Shown here piece by piece: positions 5,547-41,168 of a stretch of 64,000 bases of DNA. The notes under the pieces were generated by a model that was given only the letters and a program-made list of their open reading frames with translations, was not told where the DNA came from and made no database searches. The number at the start of each line of letters is the position of its first letter. The stretch's first letter is position 1. A program made the position numbers and the translations under genes. Origin of the DNA: Candidatus Enterococcus ferrettii (GTDB lineage Bacteria; Bacillota; Bacilli; Lactobacillales; Enterococcaceae); the NCBI RefSeq assembly GCF_017377655.1, contig NZ_JAFREL010000009.1, positions 1 to 64,000 on the forward strand, given 5' to 3'.

Positions 5547-6225
5547 CTAATCCCCCTAAATTAAAAAACAATCATTCTATTCTAATTGATATTCTACGTG
5601 ATTATTTTTGTAACGTAAACAGTTTTCTGCAAGCTTAAGCTTTAAAATTAAGCAAGCGCATTGCAGCGGGCTTTAAAAATTACAAATACACTCAACGTCT
5701 TCTCATGAACCAATGTTTTACTATTAAGCTTTCTAATTCTCTGTTCAACCTGTTTATTCTATAGGATAATAAGAAAAACATGGTTATGACGAGGAGCTTT
5801 ATGAATCCAGAACTATTTATTATTGAATGACTATCCTCCAAGGAGAAAATCAATGCCGATGACAAAGAGAATCAGCAATGAAACCAGTGTACCTCAGCCG
5901 GTTCAATATGTCAGTTTTGTGAATCCAATCTTGGGCTTTTATCGATTCGGGAAAAGCTGTCTTATACCAGCAATAGCGGCAGTTCCTTTAAAGAACGGTG
6001 GTGACGATTCCTTAGGGGGATTAGACAGGCAGTTTGGCGCTGTTCCAGTCACCTAACGTGGTTTCTCAAACAGAGATCAATCAATTGGAACCGACAGTCT
6101 GTCTGCTGAAAAACATCAGCATTGACCAATGGAAGATGTTTGCTTGTCTGTATCGTTGCTCGAACAATAGAGAAACCTGGCAATTTGCCGAACAGCTTTC
6201 CTAAATGGAGCAGAAGGCTGCCCAC
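5547..6225 (+). pseudogene. Intergenic stretch with possible decayed gene remnant
   Basis: No intact gene is present in this 679-base gap. From about 5801 to 6203 pieces of reading frame in three rightward phases are separated by stops and shifts: a short MNPELFIIE start at 5801, a 78-codon piece at 5823-6056, and a piece ending at 6200 (KNISIDQWKMFACLYR then ETWQFAEQLS). The last piece has the look of real protein. I do not recognise the family, and chance open frames cannot be excluded. The first 250 bases hold only AT-rich promoter-like sequence for the hydrolase gene. Confidence 0.3.
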
Positions 6226-14183: not shown

Positions 14184-14225
14184 AAAGGAGAAGCGCTGTA
14201 TACGAAAGCAGCGTTTCTCCTTTTT
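14182..14225. terminator. Bidirectional terminator closing the RNA-repair operon
   Basis: AAAAAGGAGAAGCGCTG (14182-14198) pairs with CAGCGTTTCTCCTTTTT (14209-14225), with one G-U pair. It separates the repair operon from the convergent ABC operon, and overlaps both stop codons. Confidence 0.85.
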
Positions 14226-14956
14226 CAACTAATCCGAGCTAAAAAGCGTTGCGTACGTTCTTCCTTTGGTGCCGCAAAGAATTCCTCAGGGGGGCCTTCT
14301 TCAATGATTCGACCTTCATCCATAAAAACTACATGGCTGGCAATGTCACGAGCAAAGCCCATTTCATGAGTAACTACCACCATCGTGATGCCTTCTTCTG
14401 CCAGCTGACGCATCACCTGCAGAACATCGCCGATCAATTCGGGATCCAATGCAGAAGTCGGTTCATCAAACAACAACACGTCCGGCTTTACAGCAATTGC
14501 TCGCGCGATTCCGATCCGCTGCTGCTGCCCACCAGATAATTCATGAGGATAGTAATTTTCATGACTAGACAAACCCACTTTGGCGATGGCTTCGTGGGCA
14601 GTTTTCAAAGCCTCCGCTTTAGGAATCTTACGTGCGATAATTAAGCCCTCTAAGACATTTTCCAAAGCGGTTTTATTGGCAAACAGATTGTAGTGTTGAA
14701 AAACAAAGGCTGTTTTCTTCCGGAGGGTTAAAATTTCTTTATTGGAAATTTTGGCTAAGTCATAGGCAGCATCGGCAAGTGATAATTCACCGCTGTCCGC
14801 CTTCTCTAAGCCGTTTAGGCAACGCAAGAAGGTCGTCTTTCCTGATCCGCTAGGGCCGAGGATAACAATGACATCTCCTTGATTTACCTGCAAACTAACG
14901 TCTTTTAAAACTGATTGCTGCTGAAAGCTTTTGTGAATATGAGTAGCGTTTAGCAT
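14225..14956 (-). CDS. Polar amino-acid ABC transporter ATPase (243 aa)
   Basis: The energising subunit of an importer for polar amino acids. Walker A is [14 protein letters not shown], the Q-loop is VFQHYNLF, the signature is LSGGQQQR, and Walker B is [12 protein letters not shown]. The start at 14956 follows AAAGGAGC; longer readings run into the permease gene. It overlaps the end of the upstream permease gene by 62 bases. It is last in a leftward operon of methyltransferase-like enzyme, binding protein, two permeases and ATPase. The leader upstream is Cys-coded, so cystine or a related sulfur compound is the likely cargo (inference). Confidence 0.9.
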
Positions 14957-15671
14957 GAGAAAGCTCCTTTCGAACGTTTTTACTAGTACGTTGAGAATTT
15001 CGATGCTGAAGCAACGAGAACACGCCTTGAATTGCTCCGCATAGCAGTAAATACACAACAAAGATGACAAAGTAAGCCTCAAAATAATGGTAACCATAAG
15101 CAGCCTGTACGCGGGCGATAGCCGTAATATCCTGCACCGTCATGACAAAAACCAAAGAGGTCCCTTTGACTAAGTTAATCATCAGGTTGCATAAATTCGG
15201 CAATGCCGAAACCAAGGCTTGAGGAAAAATAATCCGCCGATAGGTTTGAAAATTACTTAGACCAATGGCCTGACCAGCTTCCAGTTGGCCTCTGTTTACG
15301 GTCATCAAAGCCGAACGAAATACTTCCGATAAGCTGGCAGTGGTTAAAAAGCCGAAAACGATAAAGGCATAGAAAATTGGATTAAAATCAAAGACATTTA
15401 CCGAGCTTCCAATCCGCTGCATGAAAACATTTAAGACACTAGGCAGCAAGCTGTAAAAGAATAAAATCAGTAAAATCGGCGGTGTCGCCCGCACAAAAGC
15501 GAGGTAAACCATGGAAAAACCAGTTATTCCTTTAACCCTGTGGATTCGTGCCAAGGCAAGCAGTAAAGCTGGCAAAAAACTCAGAGCAAAGGCTACTGCC
15601 ATAATAGCCAAAGTGGTAGGAACCCCTCTTAAGGTTAAGAAAAAGGTTTCGATGATAAATTGCCAATCCAT
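14895..15671 (-). CDS. Polar amino-acid ABC transporter permease (258 aa)
   Basis: A HisM/GlnP-type inner-membrane subunit with about five membrane segments and the conserved EAA-like loop ([26 protein letters not shown], of which the start is EAGQAIGL). The ATG at 15671 has AGAGGGAG eight bases upstream; the GTG at 15680 is too close to it. The gene overlaps the ATPase gene and follows a second permease of the same family, so the transporter is a heterodimer. Confidence 0.88.
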
Positions 15672-15811
15672 TTCATTCACTCCCTCTTTATATCAAGGCA
15701 ATCATTTTTCCTTGAAAAATCAGTTTGGTGCTCAGACTGGATACCCTTCGTCTTCATTCGCATGCTTCGTTTGATTTATTTTCTGTGGGAACGAAGCTGG
15801 GAATAGTGGAA

Positions 15812-16504
15812 CTAGTATCCTTTAGGTGTCAGAAGGTGTTCAGCAGCTTGAGTGGCTAAGGTCAGTACGAAAGCCAAGCCCCAATAAATAATCGCAGCCG
15901 CGGTATAAGTTTCCAGCGAAAAGTTGCCGAAGTTGCGATTAATCAAAAGGTTTGCACCGCCTAACACATCAATTAAGCCGATGGTGTAGGCCAAAGCGGC
16001 ATCCTTCATCAAATTAAGTAAAGCAGTAGAAAAGTTGGGCAAAGCAATCCGGGCTGCCTGCGGCAATAAGATACGATAAAATGTTTGAAAAGGGGATAGC
16101 CCAATACTCAATCCGGCTTCCAGTTGTCCTTTAGGTACCGACAAGTAGGCCGAAGTAAAGACTTTGGAAATAATAGCTGCAAACAATAAAGTCATGGCGA
16201 TTATCACGAAGACTCCTCGAGACCAGCCATCGCTTTGGATACCCAGCCACCAATTAAGGAAGCGGGGAAAGCCATAAAAAACGATGAACAATAGAACAAT
16301 CGGCGGCGTACAACGCAGAACAAAAACATAGCTCTCCGCAATTTTTTTCAAATAGTTATCTGAAGCAAGCAGCCCCCAGGCGACGATTCCGCCTAGAAGT
16401 GTTCCTAAAAGAACCGTAATGCCTACAACTGCCAGCGTAACGGGTAAATACGTCAGCAGCTTAGGCAGCACCTGAAGAATACGTGCTGGATCAAAAGAGA
16501 CCAT
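15812..16504 (-). CDS. Polar amino-acid ABC transporter permease (230 aa)
   Basis: The second HisM/GlnP-type permease of the operon. About five hydrophobic segments are present, and the EAA loop reads LEAGLSIGLSPFQTFYRILL. The ATG at 16504 follows AAGGAGGAATTCG. It lies 12 bases after the binding-protein gene and about 140 bases before the next permease gene. In cystine and other polar amino-acid systems such pairs form the channel. Confidence 0.88.
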   Translation of the reverse strand: MVSFDPARILQVLPKLLTYLPVTLAVVGITVLLGTLLGGIVAWGLLASDNYLKKIAESYVFVLRCTPPIVLLFIVFYGFPRFLNWWLGIQSDGWSRGVFVIIAMTLLFAAIISKVFTSAYLSVPKGQLEAGLSIGLSPFQTFYRILLPQAARIALPNFSTALLNLMKDAALAYTIGLIDVLGGANLLINRNFGNFSLETYTAAAIIYWGLAFVLTLATQAAEHLLTPKGY

Positions 16505-16515
16505 CGAATTCCTCC

Positions 16516-17373
16516 TTAGTCATTCTTGTCAATAAATTGAAAAACATCCTCACCAAAATATTTTTTCGACAGCGCTTGAAGAGTACCATCGTCTTCTAAT
16601 TCACGAATTGCTCCTTCGTAAGCTTTAGCAAATTCCTTATTCTGTTCATTACGGTGCACGAGCGGGTAAGTTGGAATTCCTTTGTAAGGAACATAAGTGA
16701 GCTGATCAGCATATTGATGATAAGCCCCTTCTTCATTTTGAATCGCCTCCTCATAGGAAAGCTTGATATCAAAAAAGGCGTCATACCGTTTCTCTAATAC
16801 CCAGGCATAGGCATCAGCTACGTTAAAGGCTTCGGCAGCTGTTAACTGGATTGGTTGATCGGTATGTTCTTTGTTGTATTCCTCAATTACATTCCATTGC
16901 GCATTTTGTGGGGAGATTGGGACTAGTTTGCCTCCTGTTTTTGCAAACGAGTCAATATCTGTGATGGTTCCAGCATCTTCCTTACGAATGGTAAAACCAA
17001 TGATACTGGCGCCGATCTTTTCTTCCGGCAGAATAAATTTTTTCGCCCGTTCAGCGGTGTACCAAGCACCCTTAACCCCCACGTCATATTTTCCTGACTC
17101 TAATCCAATGAGCAAATCATCGTCACTAGTACCAGTGTATTCCAGCTTATACTGGGGGAGTTTTTTATCGACGGCCTTTAATACCTGAACCTCATACCCA
17201 TCGGATTCGCCGTTTTCGTTAATGAAATCATAGGGAACGTAATTTTGAGTGTGGGCGACTTTGATGGTGGTCACCTGTTCATCAGCGGCTTCCGGCTGGT
17301 TGCTTTGCCTGACCCAGAAGGTCCCTCCGGCCAGTACCAAGATGATTCCTAAACCAATAACTAGTTTTTTCAT
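16516..17373 (-). CDS. Amino-acid ABC transporter substrate-binding protein (285 aa)
   Basis: A family-3 solute-binding protein. The start of the mature domain is typical (TIKVAHTQNYVPYDFINENG, then SDGYEVQVLKAV), and so is the C-terminal GTLQALSKKYFGED. The N-terminus is a membrane-spanning signal segment without a lipobox Cys, so it is probably anchored by an uncleaved helix. The ATG at 17373 follows AAGGAGGCAG. Ligand specificity cannot be read directly; the Cys-coded leader of the operon suggests a sulfur-containing amino acid. Confidence 0.88.
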   Translation of the reverse strand: MKKLVIGLGIILVLAGGTFWVRQSNQPEAADEQVTTIKVAHTQNYVPYDFINENGESDGYEVQVLKAVDKKLPQYKLEYTGTSDDDLLIGLESGKYDVGVKGAWYTAERAKKFILPEEKIGASIIGFTIRKEDAGTITDIDSFAKTGGKLVPISPQNAQWNVIEEYNKEHTDQPIQLTAAEAFNVADAYAWVLEKRYDAFFDIKLSYEEAIQNEEGAYHQYADQLTYVPYKGIPTYPLVHRNEQNKEFAKAYEGAIRELEDDGTLQALSKKYFGEDVFQFIDKND

Positions 17374-17450: not shown

Positions 17451-18431
17451 TTACTGATAAGTAACTTCCCGAACCCATTGCAAATGTTCCAGTGGAGTAT
17501 CGCTGGGCACGGTGCAATCTGCTCCTAGAATGATACCAATTTCACCGGCTTCCTCCAGCAAAGCTTGCGTTGCTTGTTGAATGTCCGTTTGATTCCCATG
17601 GTAAAGGATACTGTTCGCTGTATTATCAAACCCGCCAATTACTGTTCGGTCAAATAAGTTTTTTCCTTCAATTAAGGAAACCTGTTCAGGACCAACAGCC
17701 CAATTGACAGCTGCGGAAGGATAATCTTGATAAAGAGACAGATCATTTGTAGCTCCTTCATATCCGCAAATATGCAGGATGTTGTTGGCTGAGATTCGAT
17801 TGGCTGCCTCAAGAACAATTAAGTCGGAGCTACGAATAAATCGTGCGTAAATGTCAGAAGAAATTCGCTGATCCTGCACATTTTGGACACTTAAGTAAAT
17901 TCCGTCAATATCGGTTTGACTCAAAACAGCCGTTACCAAGTGTGAGATGTCTTCGGCTATCACATTTAATACGTGCTGTGTCAGTTCAGGATTCTCTAGC
18001 AAGAATTCTGCAAACTGAGCTTCACCTCCAGGCAGCTGCCATTTAAAGTAGGTAGCTGGTGCAAAAATATTGTAAAAAGCCGCAATATCCTCTAAAAAGT
18101 GCTTCTTTTGTTCCCTTACTAATGCCACCTGCTGCTGAATCCAAGGATGCTCCTTGCCAATCGATTGAATGTCCTTCAAGTCATCAATTGTTCTAGCTTG
18201 GGCAATTTGTTCATTAGGGTAATAAAAGAACCCATCGCTCATTAATTTGACAAAGTCTGGTTGGAACTCAGCGATAAATGTTTGATGACCTGCAATGTTT
18301 CGTTCGATTACTTCAGGAATCGGCTGTCGAAGCTCCTCTTCATTAGTAATAAAATGAAACCAAAAACCAACCGGAACTCTTTCCACTTTTTGTTGATGCA
18401 GTGCACGTAAAACCAACTCTCTTTTTGACAT
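17451..18431 (-). CDS. URO-D-fold zinc methyltransferase-like protein (326 aa)
   Basis: Belongs to the uroporphyrinogen decarboxylase superfamily. The sequence keeps the Zn pattern of MtaA/MetE-type methyltransferases, HxC in LHICGYEG and a distal Cys in ILGADCTVPSDTP, rather than haem-pathway features. No haem genes are nearby. It is therefore more likely a methyltransferase acting on a methylated sulfur or nitrogen compound than HemE (inference). The ATG at 18431 follows AAAAGGAGTG. It is the first full gene after Cys-leader 1 and is followed by the amino-acid ABC genes. Confidence 0.75.
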   Translation of the reverse strand: MSKRELVLRALHQQKVERVPVGFWFHFITNEEELRQPIPEVIERNIAGHQTFIAEFQPDFVKLMSDGFFYYPNEQIAQARTIDDLKDIQSIGKEHPWIQQQVALVREQKKHFLEDIAAFYNIFAPATYFKWQLPGGEAQFAEFLLENPELTQHVLNVIAEDISHLVTAVLSQTDIDGIYLSVQNVQDQRISSDIYARFIRSSDLIVLEAANRISANNILHICGYEGATNDLSLYQDYPSAAVNWAVGPEQVSLIEGKNLFDRTVIGGFDNTANSILYHGNQTDIQQATQALLEEAGEIGIILGADCTVPSDTPLEHLQWVREVTYQ

Positions 18432-18553
18432 GTAAACACTCCTTTTTTGTTTTGAAATCGATGCAAGCAATGGACAGATTGTGACAAGGACAGGGCAAAT
18501 AGCTTCTTAGGGTTAATGGGTTTGTGAATGTTTTCTCAACTAAACCAAAGAAA

Positions 18554-18582
18554 AAAGGACTTGATTCAGCATCAAGTCCTTT
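18554..18582 (-). terminator. Attenuator-type terminator after Cys-leader 1
   Basis: AAAGGACTTGAT pairs with ATCAAGTCCTTT around a 5-base loop (12 bp) and is followed on the minus strand by TTTTTTCTTT. It stands 30 bases after the stop of the leader peptide and about 120 bases before the methyltransferase-like gene, so it must be read through for the operon to be expressed. The same GGACTTGAT/ATCAAGTCC core occurs in the terminator at 19731-19758. Confidence 0.85.
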
Positions 18583-18612
18583 AGTGCACCATTTAGAATG
18601 AACTTCATTCCA

Positions 18613-18699
18613 TTAAGGGTACGCTAAAGAACACGGCATGCATTGACAAGCCATGTTCATTGATTCAGTTGTCATTACAGAACTAGTGACTGTTAACAT
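18613..18699 (-). CDS. Cys-rich leader peptide 1 (28 aa)
   Basis: A short gene with an excellent binding site, AAGGAGGAG, seven bases before ATG. The product begins MLTVTSSVMTTESMN and ends MACQCMPCSLAYP, with Cys at 18, 20 and 23. It lies between the LysR gene and the methyltransferase/ABC operon and is followed by a terminator, the layout of a leader peptide in transcription attenuation. Its tail matches that of the peptide at 19780-19869. It could instead be a functional metal- or thiol-binding mini-protein. No similar leader is known to me. Confidence 0.75.
   Translation of the reverse strand: MLTVTSSVMTTESMNMACQCMPCSLAYP
18629..18658 (-). promoter_or_regulatory. Conserved 30-nt RNA hairpin inside Cys-leader 1
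   Basis: In the minus-strand RNA GAACAUGGC pairs with GCCGUGUUC (9 bp, one G-U). The 12-base loop UUGUCAAUGCAU contains the Cys codons UGU and UGC. The second leader forms an equal-length hairpin with compensatory stem changes at 19796-19825. Confidence 0.6.
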
Positions 18700-18731
18700 A
18701 CGTGTTCTCCTCCTTGTTTTAACTTTTTCTA

Positions 18732-18771
18732 ACTATACCAAGAGAAAGGTCATTTGGATAATTGTTGTTAT
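18732..18771 (-). promoter_or_regulatory. Promoter and possible LysR box for the leader 1 operon
   Basis: On the minus strand TATAGT (18732-18737) is a good -10 with no good -35 element, as in activator-dependent promoters. ATAA-N6-TTAT at 18758-18771 is a dyad of the LysR type, placed around -40. The LysR gene ends at 18778, so it is a likely regulator of this promoter. Confidence 0.5.
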
Positions 18772-18777
18772 TGATGG

Positions 18778-19701
18778 TCAGCCATTGGATTTTTCAATAG
18801 ATACAATGGACTGGTCTACGGCGTTTTGAACTTCTTCGATGAAAAGCTCAGCCATTTTACTCAGAGAGCGCTGTTGATGATAAACAACGCCTAAGGTATG
18901 AATATCGGAATCGGCTAAAGGAATCAAAGCAATTTGTTCCTTGGCAAAGCCTTCTACAATGCCCAAACCCGAGGCGTAAGCATCTGAGCCGCACAACAGA
19001 TTCAACAGAGTACCGCGATCATTGGCATAAATCACAGCTTGTTTTGTAGGGATTTCCAGAGGATCCTCTTCAAAATGAGAAAATTCATATTCCTCCTGGT
19101 TGAAACGAATTTGTGGATAGTCAGCTAAATCCTGAACGGTAATCTGTACTTTGTCAGCCAATGGGTGGTCTTTGCGCAGGAAAATCTGAGTGACAAATTT
19201 TCCTAAAGGCTGAAAGGTTAACTGCTCTTGTGCAAAATGCCGTTCTAAAGAACGTTTATTTGTCGGTGTTAGGTATAGGATTCCCAATTCACTGCGAAAG
19301 CTTTGCAGGCCTTCAATAATCTTTTGAGTCGTTGTCTCAATTAAATGAAAGTGCTGGCATTCGGTTTGAAACTGTTGAAAGACAGTTAAAAAAGGTTGCG
19401 ATAAAAAATCATAATGCTGAGCGGCTACGATAAAATCTTTTTTCTTATTCGGCTGATATTGATTCTCCAATAATTCGACCTGAGCCAAAATCCGGCGTGC
19501 GGCCACTAAAAACTCGCTGCCATCTTCAGTTAAGCGAGTACCTGATTTAGAACGATGAAACAACCGGATACCTAGAGAGGTCTCCAACTCTTTAATGGCA
19601 GTAGAAAGACTAGACTGGGTAACAAATAGATCCTTTGCGGCTTGACTAAAGCTGCCTGCTTCAGCAATTGCCACGGCATAACGGCATTGTTGAAAATTCA
19701 T
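18778..19701 (-). CDS. LysR-family transcriptional regulator (307 aa)
   Basis: A full-length LTTR. The N-terminal winged helix is typical (NFQQCRYAVAIAEAGSFSQA, then AKDLFVTQSSLSTAIKELE), followed by the periplasmic-binding-like effector domain. The N-terminus resembles CmbR/CysB-type sulfur regulators, though this is only a general similarity. The ATG at 19701 follows AAAGGGAG. The gene lies behind its own Cys-rich leader peptide and terminator and just before Cys-leader 1, so it probably activates the downstream methyltransferase/ABC operon while being itself attenuated. Confidence 0.85.
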   Translation of the reverse strand: MNFQQCRYAVAIAEAGSFSQAAKDLFVTQSSLSTAIKELETSLGIRLFHRSKSGTRLTEDGSEFLVAARRILAQVELLENQYQPNKKKDFIVAAQHYDFLSQPFLTVFQQFQTECQHFHLIETTTQKIIEGLQSFRSELGILYLTPTNKRSLERHFAQEQLTFQPLGKFVTQIFLRKDHPLADKVQITVQDLADYPQIRFNQEEYEFSHFEEDPLEIPTKQAVIYANDRGTLLNLLCGSDAYASGLGIVEGFAKEQIALIPLADSDIHTLGVVYHQQRSLSKMAELFIEEVQNAVDQSIVSIEKSNG

Positions 19702-19730
19702 AATAAGACTCCCTTTCTGGGTAAAAGAAA

Positions 19731-19758
19731 AGGGGACTTGATTTCCATCAAGTCCCCT
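19731..19758 (-). terminator. Attenuator-type terminator after Cys-leader 2
   Basis: AGGGGACTTGAT pairs with ATCAAGTCCCCT (12 bp, 4-base loop), followed by TTTTCTTTTAC on the minus strand. It stands between leader peptide 2 and the LysR start, only 30 bases before the ATG. The core stem is identical to that at 18554-18582. Confidence 0.85.
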
Positions 19759-19779
19759 GGCTGGATCGCCTATGGCAAT

Positions 19780-19869
19780 CTAAACGTACGCCAAAGAACA
19801 CGATGCGCATCGACACATCATGTTCTGACAGTTCATGGGAAAGAAACGGGTTGGCCGATTGATACGCAT
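19780..19869 (-). CDS. Cys-rich leader peptide 2 (29 aa)
   Basis: A short gene behind AAAGGAG, eight bases before ATG. The product starts MRINRPTRFFPMNCQN and ends MMCRCASCSLAYV, with Cys at 14, 19, 21 and 24. The last 13 residues match leader 1 at M, C, C, C, S, L, A and Y. Seventeen bases of DNA (CGTGTTCTTTRGCGTAC) are also conserved. It is followed by a terminator and then the LysR gene. The arrangement is that of a cysteine-sensing leader; a function as a peptide in its own right is possible. Confidence 0.75.
   Translation of the reverse strand: MRINRPTRFFPMNCQNMMCRCASCSLAYV
19796..19825 (-). promoter_or_regulatory. Conserved 30-nt RNA hairpin inside Cys-leader 2
   Basis: In the minus-strand RNA GAACAUGAUG pairs with CAUCGUGUUC (10 bp, one G-U). 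The loop UGUCGAUGCG holds codons UGU-CGA-UGC. Compared with leader 1, GC/GC in the stem is replaced by AU(G)/(C)AU, so pairing is kept while sequence changes. Confidence 0.6.
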
Positions 19870-19902
19870 CACATTCACTCCTTTGTTAAAATATTATGAA
19901 TA

Positions 19903-19930
19903 AGAATAGCATATTTTTAATGATAGTCAA
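19903..19930 (-). promoter_or_regulatory. Promoter of leader 2 - LysR
   Basis: On the minus strand TTGACT (19925-19930), a 16-base spacer and TATTCT (19903-19908). It places the transcript start about 30 bases before the leader ATG. Confidence 0.6.
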
Positions 19931-20045
19931 ATAAAATAAGGTTAAGCATAACTAAAAGGCGGTGCATTATTTTGCAATGGTTTGCATACTTATGTTGAAA
20001 AAGAATGCAAAAGGTGGTATGGTAGGAAAGAAGGAGAGAACAACA

Positions 20046-24583: not shown

Positions 24584-25549
24584 TTATTTTGGTTCTTTGA
24601 TGCTAGCAGGATCAATGCCTAATGCTTTTGCCATATCCTCATTAACATAGAACGCCAAATTCTTCGCACTTTCCACGGGCATTGTTTGAGGTTCTGCCTC
24701 GCCATCTAAAATTTTTGCAGCCATTTCCCCAGTTTGCTTGCCTAGAGAAACATAATCCACGCCTAAAGTGACCAATCCGCCTTCTTTTACTTGATCGACT
24801 GAACCTGCGACTAAAGGAACTTTATGTTCTTTTACCACTTCACCAACCACTGTTGCTGCACTGGCAAAGGTGCTGTCAGTTGGAATATAAATTGCATCTA
24901 CTTCGCTGGCTACGGAGGTTGTTGCTTGTTGAACATCATTGGTTGAAGTTGCATTTCTAACCATGATTTCCAAACCAAGCTCTTCCAAATATTCTGTTGC
25001 TACGTCAATTTGAATTTGTGAGTTTACTTCCCCAGCGTTGTATAATAAACCGATTTTTTTAGCATCCGGTGCAACTGACAACAGCAAATCAATTTGTTTC
25101 TTGATTGGTGAAAGATTCGTTGTCCCTGACATATTTGTACCGGGTTTATCATAGCTTTTTACTAATTTTGCCGCTTTCAAGTCAGTCACAGCAGTAACTA
25201 GAGCCGGAATATCAGCTGTTCCGTTGGCAATGGATTGTCCAGCAGGTGTACCTACCCCTAATAATAAATCCGGTTGATCCTTGATTAATTTTTCACTCAT
25301 ACTCTTTAGGTTGTCTTGATTATTTTGAGCATTTTGATAAGAAATTTCCAGATTTTCTCCTTCAACATAACCGTTTTCTGCTAAGCCCTCTTTGAATCCT
25401 TCGTAAGCTTCATCAAAAGAACCATGCTGTACCGTTTGCAGAACGCCAACCTTTTTCACGTTGTCATCTGTTGCTGCATCCCCTTTACCACAGGCCCCTA
25501 ATACCAATAAGCTAACTAAACCTAATCCTAACAATACATTCTTTTTCAT
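24584..25549 (-). CDS. ABC-type substrate-binding lipoprotein, TrpX-like (321 aa)
   Basis: A lipoprotein with signal and lipobox LVLGACGKG. The mature part matches the ABC_sub_bind family (VGVLQTVQHGSFDEAYEGFK, later LLGVGTPAGQSIANGTADIP), to which tryptophan-transporter protein TrpX belongs. Related genes are normally followed by a permease and an ATPase, which are absent here: the next gene is convergent. The ATG at 25549 follows AAAAGGGGAAA. The transcript begins with a Phe-rich leader peptide and an attenuator, so the ligand is probably phenylalanine or another aromatic amino acid (inference). Confidence 0.88.
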   Translation of the reverse strand: MKKNVLLGLGLVSLLVLGACGKGDAATDDNVKKVGVLQTVQHGSFDEAYEGFKEGLAENGYVEGENLEISYQNAQNNQDNLKSMSEKLIKDQPDLLLGVGTPAGQSIANGTADIPALVTAVTDLKAAKLVKSYDKPGTNMSGTTNLSPIKKQIDLLLSVAPDAKKIGLLYNAGEVNSQIQIDVATEYLEELGLEIMVRNATSTNDVQQATTSVASEVDAIYIPTDSTFASAATVVGEVVKEHKVPLVAGSVDQVKEGGLVTLGVDYVSLGKQTGEMAAKILDGEAEPQTMPVESAKNLAFYVNEDMAKALGIDPASIKEPK

Positions 25550-39479: not shown

Positions 39480-40937
39480 ATGTCAAAAATTCGTGTGCGT
39501 TATGCACCAAGCCCAACTGGACATTTACACATTGGAAATGCCCGGACAGCGTTATTCAACTATTTATTTGCCCGTCACAATGATGGCGAATTTATCATTC
39601 GTATTGAGGATACCGATCAAAAGCGCAACATTGCTGATGGTGAAAAAAGCCAGCTAGAAAACTTGGCTTGGTTGGGAATGGATTGGGATGAATCTCCTGA
39701 CAAGCCTGGAGAATACGGCCCTTATCGTCAGTCGGAGCGTAAAGAAATTTACCAACCGCTGATTGATCAATTATTAGCCAGCAATTTAGCTTACAAATGC
39801 TATTGTACAGAAGAAGAATTAGAAGTAGAAAGAGAAGCACAGCGTGCCCGCGGCGAAATGCCTCATTATGGCGGCAAATGTGCAAGCTTGACTCCTGAGC
39901 AGCAAGCGGAAAAAGAAGCACAGGGCTTAGAGCCAGTTATCCGTTTCCGTGTACCGCGCAATACAACCTACAGCTTTGAAGATATGGTAAAAGGCGAAAT
40001 CAACTTTGAATCAGATAATGTTGGTGGTGACTTTGTTATTCAAAAACGTGATGGTATGCCAACCTACAACTTCGCGGTAGCAGTAGATGATCACATGATG
40101 AAAATCACCCACGTCTTGCGGGGAGATGATCATATTGCTAATACACCAAAACAATTAATGATCTACGATGCCTTTGGCTGGACTCGACCAACATTTGGGC
40201 ATATGACTTTGATTATTAATAGTGAAACAGGCAAAAAATTGAGCAAACGTGATGAATCAATTCTGCAATTTATCGAACAGTACCGCGAATTAGGCTACCT
40301 GCCAGAAGCAATGTTCAACTTTATTGCGTTGTTAGGCTGGTCGCCAGTTGGTGAAGACGAAATTTTCTCTCAAGCAGAATTGGTTAAAATGTTTGATACT
40401 AAACGTTTAAGCAAATCTCCAGCTGCCTTTGACCAAAAGAAATTAGAATGGGTAAATAACCATTACATCAAAGAGATGGAGTTAACTGCGTTGACTGAAT
40501 TGTGTCTGCCGTTTTTAATTAAAGCGGGTAAAGTAGAAGAAAATCCAAGTGAAGAGCGTAAAAACTGGGTGAAGCGTGTAGTTGGTTTGTATCAGCCGCA
40601 AATGAGCTTTGCTGCAGAAATCGTAGAAGTTTCTCAATTATTCTTTGAGGAACATCCGGCACTAGATGAAGCTGCTCAAGAAGTCTTGGCACAAGAATCA
40701 GTACCAATGGTTTTAAGTGCTTTTAAAGAGCAGTTGGAAGACATGCAAACTGTAGATGCTGCAAGTGTCTTGGCAGCCATTAAAGCTGTTCAAAAAGAAA
40801 CAGGTATCAAAGGCAAGAACCTTTGGATGCCGATTCGCGTCGCAGTTAGCGGTGTGACACATGGACCTGAATTACCTGAAACCGTCGAATTGTTAGGTAA
40901 GGAAAAGGCTTTGGCACATTTAAATCAAGTAATGTAA
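39480..40937 (+). CDS. gltX: Glutamyl-tRNA synthetase (485 aa)
   Basis: Charges tRNA-Glu, and in this group usually also tRNA-Gln for transamidation. The class I signatures are [20 protein letters not shown] and KLSKRD. The C-terminal anticodon-binding helical domain is complete. The ATG at 39480 follows AGAGGAG and starts [12 protein letters not shown]; the longer reading from 39414 has no homology-like content. Confidence 0.96.
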
Positions 40938-40949
40938 ACACATCGAAAA

Positions 40950-41168
40950 GAAGAAGTAGCAGAAATAATCCTTTTTAGAGAGTCTGTGGGTGGTGCAAAC
41001 AGACAGAGATTAGCCTGTGAAATGCATCTTGGAGTGGTTTTGACGAAAGAATGGTAGTCAAAAACGGAAAAACGGACGTTACCCGTTAGAGGCAGCAAAG
41101 CTGCGAACAAAAGTGGGACCACGTGAACACGCGTCTTTTGAGGAAACTCAAAGGATGCGTGTTTTTTG
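40950..41168 (+). promoter_or_regulatory. T-box riboswitch, Cys-specific, for cysE-cysS
   Basis: The T-box core AAAGTGGGACCACG is at 41110-41123. It is followed by a terminator whose arms are ACACGCGTC-TTTTGAG and CTCAAAG-GATGCGTGT (41127-41161), with a T-run. Upstream, a stem I region contains AAATGCATC, in which TGC (41023-41025) is a suitable Cys specifier. Uncharged tRNA-Cys would favour read-through into cysE and cysS. Confidence 0.88.

Follow-up and report, generated by a model that had tools for sequence, protein, structure and literature searches.

Two copies of an attenuator-like cassette, each made of a short open reading frame (ORF) and an intrinsic terminator, were identified in a 64,000-nucleotide (nt) stretch of the Candidatus Enterococcus ferrettii genome (RefSeq assembly GCF_017377655.1, contig NZ_JAFREL010000009.1, positions 1 to 64,000; hereafter the window), one upstream of a LysR-family regulator gene and the other upstream of an operon encoding a URO-D-superfamily protein and an amino acid ABC transporter. 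Judged from its sequence, each cassette is very probably a ribosome-mediated transcription attenuator that answers to Cys-tRNA, and perhaps to Met-tRNA. An initial annotation of the window had recognized the layout of transcription attenuation here, and the ORFs, the terminators and a competing RNA pairing described below support it. The locus lies on the minus strand, to which all its coordinates refer, in the order leader 2, terminator 2, lysR, leader 1, terminator 1, URO-D gene and ABC genes to position 14225. Leader ORF 1 (MLTVTSSVMTTESMNMACQCMPCSLAYP, 18613..18699) and leader ORF 2 (MRINRPTRFFPMNCQNMMCRCASCSLAYV, 19780..19869) both translate as first described. Each has its own ribosome-binding site and is followed by an intrinsic terminator; a terminator scan placed these at 18554..18582 (terminator 1) and 19731..19758 (terminator 2). 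From the stop codon to the GGAC of the terminator there were 33 nt for leader 1 and 24 nt for leader 2. The core that the two terminators had been said to share, GGACTTGAT-N3..20-ATCAAGTCC, was found in exact form at just two sites in the whole 5.4-Mb genome, namely these two terminators.

Distribution of the cassette in related genomes

Relatives were found by four routes. A scan with the URO-D protein led to E. pallens, Enterococcus sp. 669A, E. raffinosus and L. mucosae. Running a five-leader profile over 105 family genomes added G010, G020 and G038, and a LysR search of the same 105 genomes yielded G064. An RNA model (R1) built from 11 cassettes recovered all 11 source places, in 8 of the 105 family genomes, with the next match at E 0.005. 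Over 395 genomes of the order, R1 detected one new cassette, in G290 of another family, together with a relic in G331, and over 76 genomes of the family of G290 these two alone stood at E <= 0.01. Both were detected without neighbour information, and the G290 cassette was then seen to precede a LysR gene. The total came to 12 cassettes in nine genomes (G000, G010, G011 (669A), G013 (E. pallens), G017 (E. raffinosus), G020, G038, G064 and G290), belonging to four genera and two families of one order, plus the one decayed relic. The initial annotation had proposed such a search of related genomes; as the cassette recurs in eight further genomes, it is not a chance arrangement.

Weak peptide-profile matches, of which 30 loci were scanned by Cys-pattern and 20 inspected, yielded none with tail and terminator beyond the named cassettes; that scan was confined to matches with a locus and overlooked the true G038 leader, which was recognized separately. 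Among 14 RNA-model loci inspected, L133 was a cassette, L134 the relic, and 11 were not leaders; two further G331 matches were not leaders either, and matches at E 0.0114 to 1 lay largely outside the inspected set. No cassette was seen by eye within about 400-500 nt 5' of the LysR homologues in G002, G003, G009, G022, G038 and G040, while the remaining LysR homologues with a locus were screened solely by a filter on Cys count and terminator.

Pairing of the leader end with the terminator foot

The codons at the leader end, GUUCUUU(A/G)G, are complementary to the 5' foot of the terminator, CNRRRGGAC, with 107 of 108 core cells (nine pairs in 12 cassettes) paired. In leader 1 the putative antiterminator strand GUUCUUUAGCGUAC (18619..18632, codons C-S-L-A-Y) faces its partner GUGCACUAAAGGAC (18576..18589) in the foot of terminator 1, and in leader 2 GUUCUUUGGC (19790..19799, codons C-S-L-A) faces GCCAGGGGAC (19752..19761) in the foot of terminator 2. 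As a ten-pair helix, 114 of 120 cells were paired (95%), against 32-69% for slid versions. In all ten cassettes tested, the terminator foot had its best upstream partner in the leader tail, and random coding 15-mers paired equally well in just 0-30 of 4000 draws per cassette, in all 12. Random synonymous tails, a control that covered 10 of the 12 cassettes, were as good or better in few of 5000 draws for window leader 1 (7), E. pallens leader 1 (6), 669A leaders 1 and 2 (22 and 86, the leader 1 peptide used there not being the real frame), E. raffinosus (31), G010 (26), G020 (149) and G038 (158). Two pair positions varied: the first was GC in seven cassettes, AU in three, GU in one and without a pair in one, and the second was CG in six, UA in one and unpaired in five. 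The AU pairs probably represent one event because they occur in three sister cassettes, and the UA pair is that of G020, where codon GCA became GUA and the peptide reads CSLVSP. When partners were shuffled, 1 of 500 shuffles reached the covariation score and 9 of 500 reached the percentage paired, values that kinship alone can produce. An intrinsic terminator stands between leader and gene in all 12 cassettes by sequence, and in the window pair also by terminator scan. Taken as sequence evidence, these comparisons indicate that the conserved tail is an RNA signal, the antiterminator strand, and not a peptide motif.

Ribosome position and proposed mechanism

Nine of the 12 cassettes have a Cys codon 16 nt 5' of the pairing strand, among them both in the window (Cys codons at 16 and 10 nt in leader 1, and at 31, 16 and 10 nt in leader 2); in G290 the distance is 15 nt, in 669A leader 1 12 nt, and in G064 27 and 9 nt. 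The leading edge of a ribosome, known from toeprinting, lies at +12 from the first base of the A site, so that, when a ribosome waits at -16, the RNA is uncovered from position -3 onward and the strand is free. Folding was modelled with the ribosome-covered RNA hidden and the ribosome set at a Cys codon or the stop codon. Placing the ribosome at the first Cys gave the antiterminator mean pair probabilities of 0.84-1.0 while the right arm of the terminator was still unmade (12 of 12). Four of the nine leaders with a Cys at -16 have their first Cys further upstream, and in these four the value with the ribosome at -16 was 0.99-1.0. With the ribosome at the stop codon, the antiterminator fell to 0 and the terminator reached 0.93-0.99 in all 11 cassettes with a stop before the terminator. 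Ribosome-free folding was unequal between cassettes, with antiterminator values of 0.08-1.0 before the right arm. Translation is predicted from the start codons, Shine-Dalgarno sequences and stop codons ahead of the terminator, the stop being present in 11 of 12 cassettes.

We propose that, when charged Cys-tRNA (and Met-tRNA) is available, the ribosome would reach the leader stop and cover GUUCUUU(A/G)G, the terminator would form and the gene would be off. Under low charging the ribosome would stall on the first of the two C-x-C cysteine codons, or on a Met codon ahead of it, with its leading edge ending just 5' of GUUCUUU(A/G)G; the freed strand could then pair with the terminator 5' foot once RNA polymerase had made it, the terminator would be blocked, and the LysR gene or the URO-D/ABC operon would be transcribed. 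With one cassette on the regulator and another on its likely target, the two would act as checks in series. Translation, stalling, read-through and LysR control of the operon are what we infer from the arrangement.

Several observations weigh against this mechanism. With the ribosome at the second Cys (-10), release was partial, at 0.64-0.66 across the eight frame-A cassettes that have a Cys at this position, and the antiterminator was low with the ribosome at -6 in 669A leader 1 (0.15) and at -9 in G064 (0.22). When the full RNA was folded at equilibrium and the ribosome occupied the first Cys codon, probabilities were 0.55-0.98 for the terminator and 0.03-0.63 for the antiterminator; since equilibrium usually favours the terminator, the switch would have to be kinetic, with the order of synthesis deciding. 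As ribosome-free outcomes vary, no common protector (1:2) hairpin was evident, though no dedicated search for one was made. In the synonymous-codon control, window leader 2 and E. pallens leader 2 were matched by 574 and 539 of 5000 tails, compared with 6-158 in the other eight. Covariation is thin, with four double-change cells at two pairs, three of them one UUA-CU change in sister cassettes. In E. pallens leader 2 the stop codon and the second of the paired Cys codons are gone, and the reading frame continues into that of LysR; in G038 about 440 nt separate the terminator from the start of the URO-D gene.

Cysteine, methionine and alternative explanations

The codons 5' of the pairing strand included 41 Met and 25 Cys among 236 (11 of 12 cassettes, start codon excluded). 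Against a background of 1.7% Met and 0.84% Cys in the window genes (4389 residues), the leaders were about ten and twelve times higher, respectively. Because the cassette rows are related, the P values of single cassettes are fairer, and these ranged from 1.8e-5 to 0.054 for Met and from 6e-4 to 0.022 for Cys. The link to cysteine supply drawn by the initial annotation is thus kept in part: sulfur genes (cysK, cystathionine lyase and a metE-metF set) do lie near the cassettes, but Met codons are enriched about as much as Cys codons, and therefore the signal may be the sulfur amino acids jointly. The attenuator could also be the same and its main signal methionine, or general sulfur starvation, rather than cysteine. 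Met is the commonest leader residue, metE and metF are neighbours in G010 (and by resemblance in G020), and a ribosome at the Met codons 18-22 nt upstream should free the strand too. We nevertheless consider this unlikely, if the most serious of the alternatives, given that the closest position freeing the whole strand (-16) is a Cys codon in 9 of 12 cassettes, that the ABC genes are cystine-like and that cysK lies behind the G020 cassette. Cys holds the key position and Met may add to the signal; we infer that Cys is more likely to be the signal than Met alone.

The cassettes might instead be constitutive terminators accompanied by unrelated or vestigial small ORFs, with cassette 1 ending LysR transcripts and cassette 2 ending incoming transcription, neither being regulated. 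Leader 1 does lie directly 3' of LysR, and damaged copies exist (E. pallens leader 2, 669A leader 1 and the G331 relic). The relic (L148) has a disrupted leader frame and no LysR gene behind it; a gene resembling an integrase is nearby, and an ABC/GNAT/amidohydrolase/GST-like set next to the relic has been retained. The damaged copies show that the cassette can be lost. An unregulated terminator sitting between leader and gene would, however, silence that gene, and terminator, in-frame Cys codons and pairing tail recur at near-fixed spacing before LysR or sulfur-type genes in nine genomes, which makes this explanation improbable.

The initial annotation had seen the peptide tail CxCxxCSLAY as the shared feature. 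As a peptide it varies, and copies ending CSLVSP, CSLANFC, CHHVLW and CRVL also occur; as RNA, the 9-mer GUUCUUU(A/G)G is kept. Three cassettes translate the 9-mer in a shifted frame, as V-L-W (G064 and G290) or as V-L-stop (669A leader 1), and each of them has two in-frame Cys codons 5' of it. The alignment gap that changes the frame falls after the second Cys in G064 and G290, and at or after it in 669A leader 1; in G064, Ala replaces the first Cys of the usual pair and another Cys lies 18 nt 5' of the last one. Such a change is expected from the proposed attenuator because selection would act on codons up to the Cys codons and thereafter on bases, not residues. A peptide-arrest motif was considered as the main explanation and rejected, since the frame of the tail shifts yet the RNA stays. 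In such a nascent-chain arrest, the CxCxxCSLAY tail would stall the ribosome upon binding a ligand or metal. In its favour, all 8 aligned frame-A peptides keep S-L behind the third Cys and 6 of the 8 keep S-L-A-Y, which exceeds what Cys codons alone would need. The persistence of the 9-mer while the frame shifts speaks against an SLAY arrest peptide, however, as do the endings CSLVSP, CSLANFC, HHVLW and RVL, and the conservation of bases is accounted for by the pairing, so that we regard nascent-chain arrest as quite improbable. Weaker still, and very improbable, is a functional small peptide (metal-binding, secreted or modified) co-regulated with the operon: we count in its favour the CxCxxC pattern, which we take to resemble a metal site, but the N-terminal part of the leader is variable, three copies use another frame behind the second Cys, and no gene for peptide modification or export was noticed in the ORF lists beside the cassettes, where no dedicated search was made.

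Genes behind and around the cassettes

A candidate gene for control lies behind every one of the 12 cassettes: LysR in five (leader 2 of the window, E. pallens and 669A; G064; G290), URO-D in six (leader 1 of the window, E. pallens and 669A; E. raffinosus; G010; G038) and a cystathionine lyase-cysK-ABC set in one (G020). The double placement on regulator and URO-D operon is found in the window genome, E. pallens and 669A, and this placement supports the earlier proposal that one type of cassette serves both a regulator and its likely target operon. Cystine-type ABC genes follow URO-D in five of six cases, the E. raffinosus contig stopping after URO-D. Behind the G020 cassette lie a cystathionine lyase/synthase family gene, cysK (above cut-off), GST, a GNAT-like gene (by resemblance) and ABC genes. 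G010 has metE, metF, a PatB-family C-S lyase and a cystathionine synthase/lyase before LysR; by resemblance, G020 carries the same four genes before LysR, and the last three of them also occur in E. raffinosus. The G290 cassette lies downstream of GST-like genes (by resemblance), an ABC set, a GNAT gene and one for an M20 amidohydrolase. Behind the G064 cassette there are only LysR and then a GST-like gene. The cassette accompanies sulfur-type genes even where the operon differs.

In the window, a promoter-like site for cassette 2 (19903..19930; TTGACT, 16 nt, TATTCT, with TG preceding the second hexamer) was assigned by consensus match alone, and similar sequence was seen by eye upstream of the LysR cassettes in E. 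pallens, 669A and G290. It is followed by a Shine-Dalgarno sequence, AAAGGAG (19878..19884), leader 2 and the LysR-family gene (18778..19701), identified from the ORF list and family profile matches. Leader 1 has the Shine-Dalgarno sequence AAGGAGGAG (18707..18715). Upstream of the URO-D cassettes in the window, L003 and L004, a shared ATAACAACAATTAT dyad and TTGGTATAGTTAG (an extended -10 with no clear -35) were noticed by eye, and these form a candidate LysR-activated promoter.

The first gene of the operon (17451..18431) had been labelled a methyltransferase. The label is unproven because the MtaA/CmuA models, which it resembles, matched far below their NCBIfam cut-offs; the protein is above the Pfam URO-D threshold, and an assignment to the URO-D superfamily is as far as it goes. 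No solved-structure relative of this protein was found by sequence. A distant URO-D paralogue with 25% identity lies elsewhere in the genome, at G000:C57:32232-33155, and is present in E. pallens too. The L. mucosae URO-D homologue is preceded (L006, about 5820-5960) by a different leader of 30 amino acids, MIKFDFLNKALDMCILIIRQADMISAGRFF, and a terminator; these are unrelated to the cassette and possibly constitute an independent attenuator on the same gene. Further along the window operon, the substrate-binding protein (SBP_bac_3; 16516..17373) and the first permease (15812..16504) had cystine transport proteins of the same kind as best NCBIfam matches, the second permease (14895..15680) had HisM as best and a cystine permease as fourth match, and the ATPase (14225..14962, with the start picked inside a longer ORF) had TcyN, all below cut-off. 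By these matches the ABC genes resemble cystine and other polar amino acid systems.

Comparison with known attenuators

In the classical trp, his and thr leaders, a stalled ribosome selects between antiterminator and terminator. The same selection has been described for His leader peptides of Bacilli (PMC2965389), and it is what we propose for the cassettes. They differ from the classical and His attenuators in that the final codons of the leader themselves form the antiterminator strand, which pairs directly with the foot of the terminator, and in that the folding shows no common 1:2 hairpin. Closer in content is uORFC-8-2, upstream of cysS in Rhodobacterales, which likewise comprises a short upstream ORF with two Cys codons, stems and a terminator U-run and is predicted to act by Cys-tRNA attenuation (PMC8632094). 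As described in the portion of that paper compared here, it belongs to alpha-proteobacteria, has tandem Cys codons and occurs before cysS only, whereas the cassettes have Cys-x-Cys with Met codons, occur in relatives within the order Lactobacillales and stand before LysR and uptake genes. The Cys leaders before cys/cbs operons of Mycobacterium, P. acnes and B. longum also have Cys near the stop and sulfur genes behind, but they have runs of Cys codons, and no conserved terminator hairpins are reported for them in the passages available, unlike in the cassettes (PMC1262725). In lactobacilli, Cys/Met T-boxes place the same kinds of genes under tRNA-charging control (PMC6004538).

The T-box model (RF00230) had no match at the cassette locus at gathering, and relaxing the threshold to E<=1 gave none in 18400-20000. 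It did match elsewhere in the window (118 bits, 40934-41141, plus strand), immediately upstream of cysE (serine acetyltransferase) and cysS (cysteine-tRNA ligase). A match to the Rfam family 'Enterococcus sRNA 2410' (RF02863; 25564-25753, minus strand) ends in a hairpin and U-run before a TrpX-type gene (tryptophan ABC substrate-binding, below cut-off, 24584-25549), and is perhaps a leader RNA and not a free sRNA. No Rfam family matched the cassette locus at gathering: BjrC68 scored 28.7 bits at 19723-19791 (E 5.8e-5), where gathering is 39, and PhrS scored 20.7 on the opposite strand, where it is 37. No NCBIfam model matched the two leader peptides at E <= 1. A literature search returned no title or abstract describing the cassette family, most subscription papers being beyond its reach.

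In the passages seen, reports of 2005 and 2010 held leader-peptide attenuation to be absent or rare in Firmicutes, with T-boxes doing such work (PMC1262725, PMC2965389), and a Leu-rich leader peptide of S. aureus is cited as working by antitermination (PMC13009471). Given the S. aureus precedent, leader attenuation in Firmicutes is not new as such. From their sequences, the cassettes most likely constitute a new family of attenuators that work through a leader peptide, a known principle, and respond to cysteine, perhaps together with methionine. Their double placement on a regulator and its target has no parallel in the literature passages compared.

The natural frame change in relatives separates the constraint on the RNA from that on the peptide, with no mutant needed. 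As a Cys/Met leader family and a cysteine-pathway T-box occur in one 64-kb window, two presumed ways of sensing tRNA charging could be compared in one cell. More tentatively, and with somewhat less than even confidence in the whole, we suggest that sulfur amino acid attenuators of Enterococcus and its relatives may read the charging of tRNA-Cys and tRNA-Met in one leader, the last codons of which would serve as the antiterminator strand, leaving the peptide frame free there, and that their presence twice in one Enterococcus lineage may put two successive gates on a LysR regulator and the operon that it targets.

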